A stretch of DNA of 5,817 nucleotides, taken from assembly GCA_003647765.1 (NCBI GenBank), contig QMNM01000112.1, forward strand, positions 1 to 5,817. Reading direction: 5' to 3'. The stretch's first letter is position 1, and each line of letters starts with the position of its first letter. The position numbers and the translations under genes were made by a program. The notes under the pieces were generated by a model that worked only from the letters and a program-made list of their open reading frames with translations, had not been told where the DNA came from and did not search any database. Shown piece after piece: positions 1,897 through 5,817 of the stretch. The DNA is from Candidatus Cloacimonadota bacterium (GTDB lineage Bacteria; Cloacimonadota; Cloacimonadia; JGIOTU-2; B8-G9).

Positions 1897-3576
1897 TTAT
1901 TTGAGAAGAATCATCTTTTTGATTTTTGTATATTTATCACCAACTTTCAATTTGTATAAATAAATTTCTGAAGAAACGGGTTTTCCATTCTCATCTTTCC
2001 CATCCCAAACAACAGAATGATAACCAGCAGGCATATCATTATTAATCAATGTTTTTATTCTTTGCCCACGAATATTATAAATTTCTATACTGACTTTTCC
2101 ATTATGAGGAATGCTATAACTAATAGTAGTTTGCGGATTGAACGGATTGGGATAATTTGCTAATAACAACATACGATTTTCAAGTGCATAATCATCATCC
2201 ACAGAAGTGCCAGTTTCTTCACCTATCTTTGCAACAAAGATGTCTCTATCTCCATTACTTATCAATGTAGTATTACCAAAATTTGCTATATTTTGAAATG
2301 CTCCGGTAATATAAGAGTTACTACTATTATCTAAGGATATTCCAGTGCCTTCATCATTGGAACTTCCACCTGCTTGCTTTGCCAAAATCCAATTACCATC
2401 TGTATCCATTTCTGCTACAAAGATGTCATAATTTCCACTGCTTGTTAGAGTGGTTGAGCCAAAAGATGCCGAACCAGAAAAATACCCTGTTACATAAGAA
2501 TTCCCATTGGTATCTGTAATTATGTCTATTCCACGGTCATCTTCATCATTTCCACCAGTTCCTTTTGCCCAAAGCCAATTGCCATTTGCATCCATTTTTG
2601 CTAAGAAAATATCCTCATATCCATTACTTGTTAGAGTAGTAGAGCCAAAAGTCGCTGTGCTTCCAAAAAATCCCGTTACATACAGATTCCCATTGGCATC
2701 TATATCTATACCGTAACCTTCGTTCCAATCACCTCCACCTGCTTCTTTTGCCCAAATCCAGTTGCCATCTGCATCTATCTTTGCCACAAAAATATCTCCT
2801 AACATAGTGCCGGTAATGGTAATAGAGCCAAAACTCGCTGAAAGGAAAAACATTCCTGTTACATACGAATTTCCATCTGCGTCAGTGGTTATATCTAATC
2901 CATAATCCCAGAAACTTCCACCTGCTTGCTTTGCCCATAGCCAATTGCCATCTGTATCAATCTTTGCTACAAAGATATCACTCTCTCCATTGCTTATAAG
3001 AATATTAGAACCAAAAGTTGCTGCACTATTAAACATTCCTGTTACATATAAGTCGCCATTTGCATCAGTAATTATGGCTTTTCCATAATCACCGTGATCA
3101 GAATCTGGTCCACCTGCACTTGACGCCCAAAGCCAGTTGCCTTCTGTATCCATCTTTGCCACAAAGATGTCATAATTTCCACAACTTGTTAGAGATGTAG
3201 AACCGAATGTTGCTGTTCCTGAAAAATATCCAGTAATATACAAATTCCCATTTGCATCCTGGCTTATATCGGAACATTTATCAAAATCTGTTCCACCTGC
3301 TCTTTTTGCCCAAATCCAGTTGCCAGCAGTATCAGTTTTGGCTATAAAAACATCACAATACCCACTACTTGTAAGAGTAATAGAACCAAAATTCGCTGAA
3401 TCGAAAAACGAACCAACTATATACGAGTTTCCATTACAATCTGTGGTTATACTATTGCCTAAATCCTCTTCTGTTCCACCAGCACTTTTTGCCCAGAGCC
3501 AGTCAGGTTCTTGAGCATAAGCAATGTTACATAACACACATAATCCAATCACTATGATAAGATTTTTTACTTTCAT
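1897..3576 (-). CDS. Secreted SBBP-repeat beta-propeller protein with C-terminal sorting domain
   Basis: 559 residues. The start is firm: AAGGAG (3583-3588) lies six bases before the ATG, followed by a signal peptide with cleavage after A-Y-A (residue 21). Residues 23-454 are seven tandem units of 61-64 residues, each of the form G-N-W-L-W-A-K-x-A-G-G ... D-A-N-G-N-x-Y-V-T-G-x-F ... F-G-S-x-x-L-T-S-x-G ... D-I-F-V-A-K-x-D. This is the SBBP (seven-bladed beta-propeller) repeat. Seven units suggest one blade each, although no fold is proven. The many D-x-D/N-G turns may bind calcium (inference). Residues 475-482 are N-Y-P-N-P-F-N-P, then a FlgD-like Ig domain and a terminal I-L-L-K, used in this superphylum for export and surface attachment. 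In the motif S-S-G-I-Y of such tails the glycine is glutamate here. The gene follows the other propeller gene on the same strand and may share its transcript. The biological role or ligand is unknown. Confidence 0.85.
   Translation of the reverse strand: MKVKNLIIVIGLCVLCNIAYAQEPDWLWAKSAGGTEEDLGNSITTDCNGNSYIVGSFFDSANFGSITLTSSGYCDVFIAKTDTAGNWIWAKRAGGTDFDKCSDISQDANGNLYITGYFSGTATFGSTSLTSCGNYDIFVAKMDTEGNWLWASSAGGPDSDHGDYGKAIITDANGDLYVTGMFNSAATFGSNILISNGESDIFVAKIDTDGNWLWAKQAGGSFWDYGLDITTDADGNSYVTGMFFLSASFGSITITGTMLGDIFVAKIDADGNWIWAKEAGGGDWNEGYGIDIDANGNLYVTGFFGSTATFGSTTLTSNGYEDIFLAKMDANGNWLWAKGTGGNDEDDRGIDIITDTNGNSYVTGYFSGSASFGSTTLTSSGNYDIFVAEMDTDGNWILAKQAGGSSNDEGTGISLDNSSNSYITGAFQNIANFGNTTLISNGDRDIFVAKIGEETGTSVDDDYALENRMLLLANYPNPFNPQTTISYSIPHNGKVSIEIYNIRGQRIKTLINNDMPAGYHSVVWDGKDENGKPVSSEIYLYKLKVGDKYTKIKKMILLK
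2215..3510 (-). repeat. Seven tandem in-gene repeats of about 183 bases
   Basis: Unit limits by protein alignment: 3325-3510, 3142-3324, 2950-3141, 2767-2949, 2584-2766, 2398-2583 and 2215-2397. Five are close to 183 bases; the third is 192 because of a three-residue insertion (D-Y-G type) before the T-D-A-N-G turn. Some blocks are also the same at DNA level: CTTGTTAGAG on the plus strand occurs at 2441, 2627 and 3185. This points to growth by duplication or recombination between units rather than protein-level convergence alone. Confidence 0.8.
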
Positions 3577-3582
3577 TGTAGT

Positions 3583-3588
3583 CTCCTT
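3583..3588 (-). promoter_or_regulatory. Ribosome binding site of the SBBP-repeat gene
   Basis: AAGGAG on the minus strand, six bases before the ATG at 3576. It lies just downstream of the GC-rich palindrome, so that structure leaves the site itself free. Confidence 0.7.
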
Positions 3589-3608
3589 ATTTTTTAATTG
3601 AAGTTTCC

Positions 3609-3652
3609 AACCCGACTCGGGTTCGGAGGGTTCGGAGAACTCGAGTCGGGTT
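3609..3652. repeat. GC-rich palindromic intergenic repeat (REP- or MITE-like)
   Basis: Arms AACCCGACTCG (3609-3619) and CGAGTCGGGTT (3642-3652) are a perfect 11-bp inverted repeat. After one G/T mismatch (3620/3641) GTTC pairs with GAAC, giving a 16-position stem and a 12-base loop. Two exact tandem copies of GGGTTCGGA lie at 3619-3627 and 3628-3636. Its composition is far richer in G+C than everything around it. It sits between two co-oriented genes, 11 bases after the stop of the first. On the minus-strand transcript no T-run follows, so it is not a normal intrinsic terminator. It could stabilise the upstream mRNA end, reduce readthrough, or be a mobile palindromic repeat. Confidence 0.7.
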
Positions 3653-3663
3653 GATATGTGCTG

Positions 3664-5253
3664 CTACTTCAAAAGCAGACACTTCTCTGTATCTATCACC
3701 TTATCATCTAATTTCAGACGATAGAAGTAAACACCTGAACTTAACTGTCTGCTATTATCATCTTTACCATTCCAGATAACTGAATAAGTTCCTCGCTTCC
3801 GTTTCTTGTCAACTAATGTTTTTACTAATTCACCTTTGATGTTATAGATTTTCAATTCAATTTCACTATCTTTTGGAATTGAATATTGAATTTTGGTCTC
3901 TGGATTGAACGGATTTGGATAATTCTGATGTAGTAATAATAGATGTTGAGTTTGTTGTATATTCTGTGTAATACCAGTTGCACCTGAATTATACATTCCA
4001 GAATTTTTATTATCTGCTTGATATTTAGGCCATGAAGAATTAAAAAGTGAAGTATCTTGGACTTGAAGTGCATATAAATTATTATCATAAGAGCCAAAAT
4101 ACAAAACACTATCTTTAATAGCAGAACCGGCTCTTGTCCAATTACAAGTATTAAATGTCCATAGAACATTTGCTTGATTCCCTTGATCTTGAAGGGCATA
4201 AAATGTGCCATTCATATCAGAAAAATAAATAGTTCCTGTGTTACCGATAGTAATTTGACTTTCAACCCAGTATCCTGTGGTAAAACTCCATTTTAGTGTT
4301 CCATCGTCAGGATTTAAAGCCAACAAACTATTTCCTTGTGCATCTTTTGTTCCAATATATATTGTTCTATCAATTCCTATTGCAGGTGAAGAATGGCATA
4401 TAAAATATCCAGCAGGATAACTCCATTTTAGTGAGCCATCTGGATTTAATGCGATAACTGAATTTTGTGTATCCATTGTTCCTACATATATTGTGCCATC
4501 TTCATCTATTGCAGGTGATGAAACTATCCAACCTGCAACATCATAACTCCATCTTAATGAGCCATTAGGATTTAATGCGAGCAATTCACTTTCACTGTGC
4601 ATAGTACCAACATATATTATTCCATCATTTCCTACTGCTGGTGCTGAAAGTATCCATTCTGCAACAGGATAATGCCATAATAAATCGCCAGTATTTGTAT
4701 CAATAGCCTTAATACCTTGATTGCCAACTCCAGTAGCAATATAAATAGTATTTCCATCTGGAGATAAAGCAGCAGAAGAGTAGTCAATACTTGCGCCTGC
4801 ATTATAAGTCCATTTTAAAGAACCGTCAGCATATACAGCATATAAATTGTTATCTCCTGGTGTAACAATGCCCCATCCAGGTATAGGATTTGGTGGGTTT
4901 TCAGCACCACCACCAAAATAAATTGTACCTTCTTCATCTATTGTTGGTGAAGAAGTTACCCACCCATTCGTTGGAAATATCCATTCTATATTCCCTGATG
5001 GACTTATTTTATATAAACTATGATATGAACCAATATAAATAAAACCATCACCATCAATAGCAGGTGTCCCATAAATAGAGCCTAAGGTTGATAGTGACCA
5101 TAATAAATCACGATTTTTATTTTTTTCACAATCAAAATTGTCCAGCCCTTTACTGCCCAGAGTTCCTGTCAATAAATTATCAGATGGCATTTGTGAAAAT
5201 AATAATGAAAACATACTCAATAGTATAATAATTGATAATATCTGTTTTTTCAC
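3664..5253 (-). CDS. Secreted PQQ/BamB-like eight-unit beta-propeller protein with C-terminal sorting domain
   Basis: 529 residues from a GTG at 5253. An ATG at 5292 is in frame but would put 13 unlikely residues before the signal peptide; AGGAGG (5258-5263) directly before the GTG and the K-K-Q-I-L-S-I-I-I-L-L start favour 5253. Cleavage is probably near F-S-Q at residue 21. Residues about 50-400 hold eight units of the PQQ-like type, each like S-S-P-A-I-D-E-D-G-T-I-Y-V-G-T ... L-A-L-N-P-D-G-S-L-K-W. Closing tryptophans fall near 52, 91, 148, 193, 235, 277, 322 and 365. Eight blades is the number in BamB and quinoprotein dehydrogenases, but no cofactor-binding or catalytic residues can be assigned. 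A W-P-K-Y-Q-A-D-N-K-N-S-G block (408-419) follows, a common feature of such secreted propellers. N-Y-P-N-P-F-N-P (from 444) begins a FlgD-like sorting tail ending C-L-L-L-K, closely similar to that of the next gene. A binding or scaffold role at the cell surface is inferred; the partner is unknown. Confidence 0.85.
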   Translation of the reverse strand: MKKQILSIIILLSMFSLLFSQMPSDNLLTGTLGSKGLDNFDCEKNKNRDLLWSLSTLGSIYGTPAIDGDGFIYIGSYHSLYKISPSGNIEWIFPTNGWVTSSPTIDEEGTIYFGGGAENPPNPIPGWGIVTPGDNNLYAVYADGSLKWTYNAGASIDYSSAALSPDGNTIYIATGVGNQGIKAIDTNTGDLLWHYPVAEWILSAPAVGNDGIIYVGTMHSESELLALNPNGSLRWSYDVAGWIVSSPAIDEDGTIYVGTMDTQNSVIALNPDGSLKWSYPAGYFICHSSPAIGIDRTIYIGTKDAQGNSLLALNPDDGTLKWSFTTGYWVESQITIGNTGTIYFSDMNGTFYALQDQGNQANVLWTFNTCNWTRAGSAIKDSVLYFGSYDNNLYALQVQDTSLFNSSWPKYQADNKNSGMYNSGATGITQNIQQTQHLLLLHQNYPNPFNPETKIQYSIPKDSEIELKIYNIKGELVKTLVDKKRKRGTYSVIWNGKDDNSRQLSSGVYFYRLKLDDKVIDTEKCLLLK

Positions 5254-5257
5254 CTTT

Positions 5258-5263
5258 CCTCCT
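5258..5263 (-). promoter_or_regulatory. Ribosome binding site that decides a GTG start
   Basis: AGGAGG on the minus strand, four bases before the GTG at 5253. No comparable site precedes the in-frame ATG at 5292, and the peptide after the GTG is a standard signal peptide. This sets the start of the PQQ-like propeller gene 39 bases inside the longest frame. Confidence 0.7.
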
Positions 5264-5355
5264 AATAGTATTACAAAATATGCGTTATGCAAAATACATA
5301 ACTTTCTGAAAAATCAGTAAATTAAAATAACAATTTTTCTTGACATACCTCCTGC

Positions 5356-5363
5356 TATATTTG
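5356..5363 (+). promoter_or_regulatory. Possible Bacteroidota-type -7 box of the transposase promoter
   Basis: TATATTTG matches the TAnnTTTG -7 element of Bacteroidota promoters. A start about seven bases further on, near 5370, would lie inside the inverted repeat and leave out its left arm. A TTGACA at 5340-5345 resembles a -35 box but is only 10 bases upstream, too close for a sigma70 pair, and no good -33 element is at the right distance. This is a weak call. Confidence 0.25.
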
Positions 5364-5382: not shown

Positions 5383-5399
5383 ATAGGATGTTATCCTAT
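5383..5399 (+). repeat. Small hairpin in the transposase leader
   Basis: ATAGGAT and ATCCTAT (5383-5389 and 5393-5399) are perfect 7-bp arms around GTT. The 8-mer GGATGTTA inside it also occurs at 5363-5370, a direct repeat 23 bases apart. It may be a transposase or host-factor binding site, or a leader hairpin just before the ribosome-binding site. Confidence 0.4.
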
Positions 5400-5404
5400 A
5401 AAAC

Positions 5405-5410
5405 AGGAGG
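5405..5410 (+). promoter_or_regulatory. Ribosome binding site of the transposase
   Basis: A perfect AGGAGG five bases before the ATG at 5416. It is unusual in lying wholly inside one arm of the 12-bp inverted repeat, so access to it may depend on where the transcript begins. Confidence 0.7.
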
Positions 5411-5415
5411 TATGT

Positions 5416-5817
5416 ATGAATAAATTCTTTTTTGATCAACCTGAACTTCATCTTATATCTGACAAGGACTTTGCATATACACCTATAGTCAAAAAATATG
5501 AAATCCTTTTTCAATATCTAGACCTTTCACATATTAAAACTCACAATCAGGGTGTTGGTTGCTCAGGTTATTCTACACATTCTATGATTAAGGCTTTTAT
5601 TGTCAAAACTTTGGAGCGAATTCCATCTATTCCTGAACTTATCTGGAGATTGCAAAATGAACCTTATCTATCTAAATACATCATCGGATTTAAAACTACT
5701 ATTCCTAATGAATCTCAATTCTATCGATTCTTGAAAAAATTCCATACTGCAAAAATTGAACACTTGATTGCAAAAATCAATAAACATACTCTAAAACTAT
5801 TAGGCAAAAATATTAAC
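5416..5817 (+). CDS. Transposase, N-terminal part (IS4/IS5/IS1182-like DDE type)
   Basis: 134 codons are open from the ATG at 5416 to the window edge. The ATG at 5412 is followed by a stop after two codons and is ruled out. Residues about 50-110 (S-M-I-K-A-F-I-V-K-T-L-E-R-I-P-S-I-P-E-L-I-W-R-L-Q-N-E then I-I-G-F and I-P-N-E-S-Q-F-Y-R-F-L-K-K-F) follow the pattern of the N-terminal domain found before the DDE catalytic domain in IS5/IS1182- and IS4-like transposases, where it reads roughly P-S-x-x-E-L-x-R-R-L ... P-D-E-S-T-F-x-R-F. The catalytic aspartates and glutamate lie beyond the window, so neither exact family nor activity can be judged. In the visible part there is no frameshift or stop. 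Confidence 0.8.
   Translation, partial: MNKFFFDQPELHLISDKDFAYTPIVKKYEILFQYLDLSHIKTHNQGVGCSGYSTHSMIKAFIVKTLERIPSIPELIWRLQNEPYLSKYIIGFKTTIPNESQFYRFLKKFHTAKIEHLIAKINKHTLKLLGKNIN

Follow-up and report, generated by a model that had tools for sequence, protein, structure and literature searches.

A tag-less, REP-like palindrome family of Cloacimonadota and its association with RAYT genes

Among the closest described systems are the GTAG-tagged REP elements and their TnpA_REP (RAYT) proteins, exemplified by the REPs and yafM of E. coli (PMC2817692, PMC8266576), in which short palindromes are dispersed through extragenic DNA and an HUH/Y1 RAYT gene is itself flanked by the palindrome. The stems of the E. 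coli REPs contain conserved mismatches or a bulge near the middle, and these are needed by TnpA_REP for activity (PMC8266576). Both the dispersed extragenic palindromes and the flanked RAYT gene recur in Cloacimonadota. We propose, with a probability of roughly 0.8, that an imperfect palindrome from a Candidatus Cloacimonadota bacterium is one copy of a REP-like family of this phylum, that a RAYT spreads these hairpins as non-autonomous units, and that the copy described here is an orphan.

The window, by which we mean the whole stretch of 5,817 nucleotides that was analysed, contains at 3609-3652 an imperfect palindrome of sequence AACCCGACTCGGGTTCGGAGGGTTCGGAGAACTCGAGTCGGGTT, in which two 15-nt arms pair with a single wobble or mismatch in the stem, a G.T that reads A.C on the other strand (Table 1). 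An inverted-repeat search places the arms at 3608-3624 and 3637-3653 (17 nt each, 94% complementary, with 12 nt in between), and the fold of the hairpin is far from chance, with z = -6.1 as RNA and -5.9 as DNA; an equally good fold was reached by 0 of 200 shuffles. Together with a GC content of 34-39% around the palindrome, this confirms the one-mismatch palindrome in an AT-rich setting that a preliminary description had reported from this locus. The same description had two exact adjacent 9-mers as the loop; the tandem copies of GGGTTCGGA are indeed exact, but the first of them (3619-3627) begins within the left arm, at its inner end, and hence "loop" is only partly right. Apart from the doubling of one 9-nt unit, the window copy (covariance-model match 3607-3654, E 1e-11) is the standard form found at loci L040 and L055. 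There is no other occurrence of the doubled unit in the genome, even at 3 mismatches. The number of 9-mers, whose variation between copies had been named as a point to check, is not a trait that varies across the family. The palindrome was rejected as a member of a curated RNA family, as the Rfam 15 covariance models give no match at E <= 1 within 3400-3850 of the window.

Table 1. Coordinates of the palindromic element and of its neighbours in the window.
Feature	Position	Strand	Remarks
Whole palindromic element, window copy	3608..3653	.	15-nt arms plus one further outer C-G pair
Arm 1, AACCCGACTCGGGTT (family motif AACYCGASTCGRGTT)	3609..3623	+	
Arm 2, AACTCGAGTCGGGTT (family motif AACYCGASTCGRGTT)	3638..3652	+	
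Conserved non-Watson-Crick stem position, two ends (G3620 with T3641)	3620..3641	+	A.C on the minus strand
Tandem duplication of GGGTTCGGA	3619..3636 (3619-3627, 3628-3636)	+	Two exact copies; private to the window copy
Upstream neighbour gene	3664..5292	-	542-aa PQQ-type beta-propeller protein, FlgD_ig / Por_Secre_tail C-terminus; not part of the element
Downstream neighbour gene	1897..3576	-	559-aa SBBP beta-propeller protein, FlgD_ig C-terminus; not part of the element

Two genes on the same strand are separated here by 87 bp, and the hairpin sits between them. The stop of the upstream gene (3664) is 11 bp away on one side and the start of the downstream gene (3576) is 32 bp away on the other; both genes encode beta-propeller-type proteins with secretion-type C-termini. 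Elsewhere in the window there is the start of a DUF772-type transposase gene (5416-5817), which is cut by the contig end and is preceded and crossed at its start by an inverted repeat (5325-5360 / 5398-5433), and an AbiEii-like nucleotidyltransferase of a type IV toxin-antitoxin system (351-1160). Two short ORFs upstream of the latter (1157-1438 and 1516-1833) have no Pfam match and may represent a broken partner gene.

The palindrome is far from unique in its own 1.97-Mb genome, where the 11-mer AACCCGACTCG has 63 matches, compared with 1 for the reversed control, and where a covariance model of the family built from 47 copies has 139 matches over both strands, representing about 72 distinct sites. 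The family consensus is a dispersed AACYCGASTCGRGTT-loop-AACYCGASTCGRGTT, and the typical copy is 35 nt long, with the two AACYCGASTCGRGTT arms separated by a spacer of 3-6 nt. By crude ORF calling, 86 of 104 copies are outside any ORF of at least 60 aa and are therefore mainly between genes. Many dispersed copies of an imperfect palindrome of 20-40 nt, located mainly between genes, are what is meant by REP in the broad sense, and the family fits this description. In 37 near-identical copies the loop and the flanks are also shared, giving a unit ACCGTGA-[35 nt]-TCTG with sharp borders, while the sequences around the copies are unrelated between sites, which together point to recent spread within this genome. 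The true copy number may be higher since many copies of this unit lie near contig ends, as repeats break assemblies. Two further interspersed repeats often adjoin the hairpin unit (for example at L011, L014, L018, and L041), one bounded by GGTAGTCC...GGACTACC and the other containing ATCCCGTAGGGATGAAAT...TAGCTCCGTAGGAGCGATATAAAT.

Several copies, including that of the window, are no more than 20 bp from a stop codon, and the palindromes might on this account be transcription terminators or 3'-end mRNA hairpins that are held by selection and are not mobile. We regard this as very unlikely. No T-run of an intrinsic terminator follows the window hairpin on either strand, and gaps that contain a hairpin are tandem, convergent, and divergent in 51, 8, and 9 cases, compared with 80, 14, and 15 for other gaps (p = 0.97, from crude ORF calls), such that divergent gaps are not depleted of copies. 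There is also no strand preference with respect to the upstream gene (17 vs 14). The equal proportions of gap types and the lack of strand preference speak against a terminator role, as do the 37 near-identical copies with their sharp borders. The preliminary view of a dispersed palindromic element rather than a gene-specific terminator is thus upheld, both by the number of sites and by the missing T-run, and confinement to orthologous loci, which it had named as evidence against this view, is not what we find, as the copies sit in unrelated flanks and in 28 of 117 genomes of the class. An RNA function of one strand, to which the G.U pairs had drawn attention, was likewise rejected for want of a strand preference relative to genes.

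The family is present in 28 of the 117 genomes of the same class that were searched, which, with the excess of the 11-mer over its control, agrees with the multi-copy repeat family of this lineage that had been suspected. When 257 Gb of bacterial and archaeal DNA (84,980 species genomes) were scanned for exact matches, 36 contigs were found, 32 of which are from MAGs named Cloacimonadota or Cloacimonadales and four from two MAGs labelled Armatimonad. The RAYT coordinates in the latter two are the same as those in G108 and G063, both from the class of the window's genome, and the Armatimonad labels are therefore probably wrong. The palindrome family is confined to Cloacimonadota in the exact scan, and the earlier suggestion that the element came from elsewhere is not borne out. 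There was no match in an exact scan of viral contigs (IMG/VR). Literature searches with AACCCGACTCG and CCCGACTCGGG returned unrelated papers only, and none of the papers found deals with palindromic repeats of Cloacimonadota. Two other types of repeat were considered and rejected. Integron attC sites are judged by RYYYAAC/GTTRRRY, and the flanks of the palindromes, which are also dispersed, are unlike these. DNA uptake signals have copy numbers far above those of the palindrome, which are far too low for such a role.

Variation within the stem is constrained. Among 46 distinct copies, changes occur on both sides, as pairs, at the outer positions, at the central S-S pair, and at the loop-closing pair, and the covariation exceeds that of all 500 shuffles and of every slid control, where the shuffle count is not to be read as a probability because the copies are related. 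The pair 14-27 is unpaired in 46/46 of these. A looser count covers 124 copies, in 122 of which the same inner position of the stem is non-Watson-Crick; both of the others (L046 and L080) are degenerate. Just outside the arms, flank positions 1 and 2 are complementary in 53/62 and 45/62 solo copies (22 and 17 expected), position 3 is marginally above chance, and positions further out are not. Solo copies have no conserved flank outside the stem, and the GT[AG]G tetranucleotide is absent from the 5' foot; the flanks of the own-genome subfamily are ACCGTGA and TCTG, not GT[AG]G. The hairpin is under structural constraint, in that pairing is kept by covariation and one non-Watson-Crick position is kept in the stem, and by analogy the latter may correspond to the stem mismatch of the E. 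coli REPs (PMC8266576).

Two further explanations draw on the arms. Taken singly, the 15-nt arms of many copies each read as a perfect palindrome (AACTCGASTCGAGTT or AACCCGASTCGGGTT), and the distance between the arms is nearly fixed, as might be expected of a double palindromic operator, the binding site of a double-strand DNA-binding protein. We give this very little credence, as covariation extends to the pairs beyond the arms and to those at the loop, which is needless for an operator, the arms remain paired across loops of 3 to about 80 nt, promoter-side gaps are not preferred, and the palindrome is linked to RAYT genes (see below). In five loci of relatives (L062, L073, L077, L084, and L085) the 15-mers also occur ~100 bp apart, in inverted orientation, at the two ends of short stretches that differ in their interiors. 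The palindrome could then be a MITE of a double-strand DDE transposase, with the 15-mers as terminal inverted repeats. This too is very improbable. Among those neighbouring genes that were inspected there was no DDE transposase with the 15-mers at its ends, whereas there were RAYTs bounded by the full hairpin; moreover, the flanks just outside are inverted complements rather than direct target duplications, and no role is known for such a mismatch at the ends of DDE elements.

The RAYT genes of relatives are a further argument for the REP-like reading. At locus L117 a 190-aa RAYT-type ORF is flanked by the palindrome, at a distance of 20 bp on the start side and 6 bp on the stop side. The protein matches REP_Tyr_transpos (NF047646) with E 3e-14, although below the NCBIfam cut-off (53 vs 80 bits), and PF01797 with 20.1 bits, just below the cut-off. 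Residues H60-F-H62 and Y120 are consistent with an HUH/Y1 enzyme, are conserved in 12 of 12 aligned rows, and Y120 aligns with the tyrosine of the YIxxNPVK motif of TnpA_REP 4er8, a match that is weak alone (E 0.22). A single-sequence AlphaFold2 model was too poor for use (pLDDT 38). Homologs are found in 62 of the 117 genomes of the class. Thirty RAYTs were fetched, and under a fixed rule the palindrome directly adjoins five of them on either side; two near relatives, near-identical, have a diverged version of it, as judged by eye and by a looser scan, and it is absent from the remaining 23, which are more distant. The seven RAYTs with the palindrome form one group (support 97/93). As judged by the A.C/G.T position, the flanking copies are inverted in L192 and L196 and have the same orientation in L191, L193, and L194. 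After the RAYT gene of L117 (2560-2664) the right half of the palindrome is tandemly repeated at 28-bp spacing. Other RAYTs of the class (L198-L220) seem, by eye, to have palindromes of another kind at their flanks, in several cases with an ACTTGA-like motif, and these are possibly co-diversified REP families.

The genome of the window has the most copies of any, and no RAYT of the flanked clade was found in its assembly, which is 89% complete, nor was a flanked RAYT among those fetched from several others with many copies (G002, G013, G099, and G108). The palindrome-flanked RAYT gene that the preliminary description had proposed to look for therefore exists in relatives but was not found in the window's own genome. 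The only Y1 transposase found there (L059) has a diverged copy of the palindrome about 200 bp away and a second copy beyond, but it was rejected as the partner because it is IS200-like and because none of 29 Y1 loci of relatives (L122-L150) has a clear copy. At the L059 locus, a PemK/MazF-like toxin and a ribbon-helix-helix antitoxin lie between two directly repeated, diverged copies (L189, 2416-3084).

At the level of sequence, then, this is a dispersed, mostly intergenic family of a single lineage that flanks a RAYT gene on both sides in several relatives. We consider it to be a new, tag-less REP-RAYT family, and the mobilisation itself we infer. The RAYT, a TnpA_REP-type HUH/Y1 tyrosine transposase, would bind the hairpin in single-stranded DNA, and the conserved A.C / G.T position would let it tell one strand from the other. 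Cleavage beside the hairpin and rejoining of the hairpin elsewhere would then spread copies as non-autonomous units. The window copy would be an orphan whose 9-nt tandem duplication was a later gain, with replication slippage as the simplest origin. A more tentative and somewhat doubtful extension is that this RAYT clade might need no guide tetranucleotide and might instead read the conserved 13-nt stem sequence and the obligatory A.C mismatch, with any paired bases at the foot and loop. If so, the choice of strand and of cleavage site would be unlike that in the GTAG-guided systems. A hairpin that has no GTAG guide but has a strict stem mismatch provides a direct test of which REP features are needed for strand discrimination by RAYTs, which are domesticated single-strand transposases. 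The family also adds a REP-RAYT pair from a phylum that is largely uncultured, and with it come a covariance model, a defined clade of RAYTs, and copies spread over many genomes.

Compared with known systems, the Cloacimonadota hairpin differs from the GTAG-tagged REPs in having no GT[AG]G tetranucleotide at its foot and in its longer stem, in which the arms are conserved in sequence and the pairs at the foot and next to the loop covary freely. In addition, as judged by the A.C/G.T position, the copies that flank the RAYT seem not always to be inverted (same orientation in 3/5, inverted in 2/5). The IS200/IS605 family also has imperfect hairpins at its ends that are recognised by a Y1 transposase, but the proteins associated with the Cloacimonadota palindrome are of the RAYT type (190-210 aa, with a match to REP_Tyr_transpos) and the IS200-like Y1 genes of relatives are not flanked by it. 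The CGTC-tagged REPs (PMC3733652) are similarly short palindromes dispersed in several phyla in families of 20-100 units, but their 8-9 bp stems, CGTC tag, CCA tail, and lack of transposase association do not fit a palindrome that has a stem of 15-18 bp and neither tag nor tail. Atypical REPs have also been described for TnpA_Y1 subclass 2.6 (Bacteroidetes) and class 3, in which secondary structures without GT[AG]G flank the RAYT and have copies elsewhere in the genome (PMC6006769, which does not mention Cloacimonadota); here the comparison is by description and not by sequence. The Y motif of subclass 2.6, YIH[QN]NP, is close to the YIHYNP of the Cloacimonadota RAYT, while its HUH motif is NH[LIV]H rather than NHFH, its W-Q motif reads F-Q in the Cloacimonadota protein, and its median HUH-Y distance is 82 aa, compared with 58 aa (H62 to Y120) in the latter (PMC6006769).
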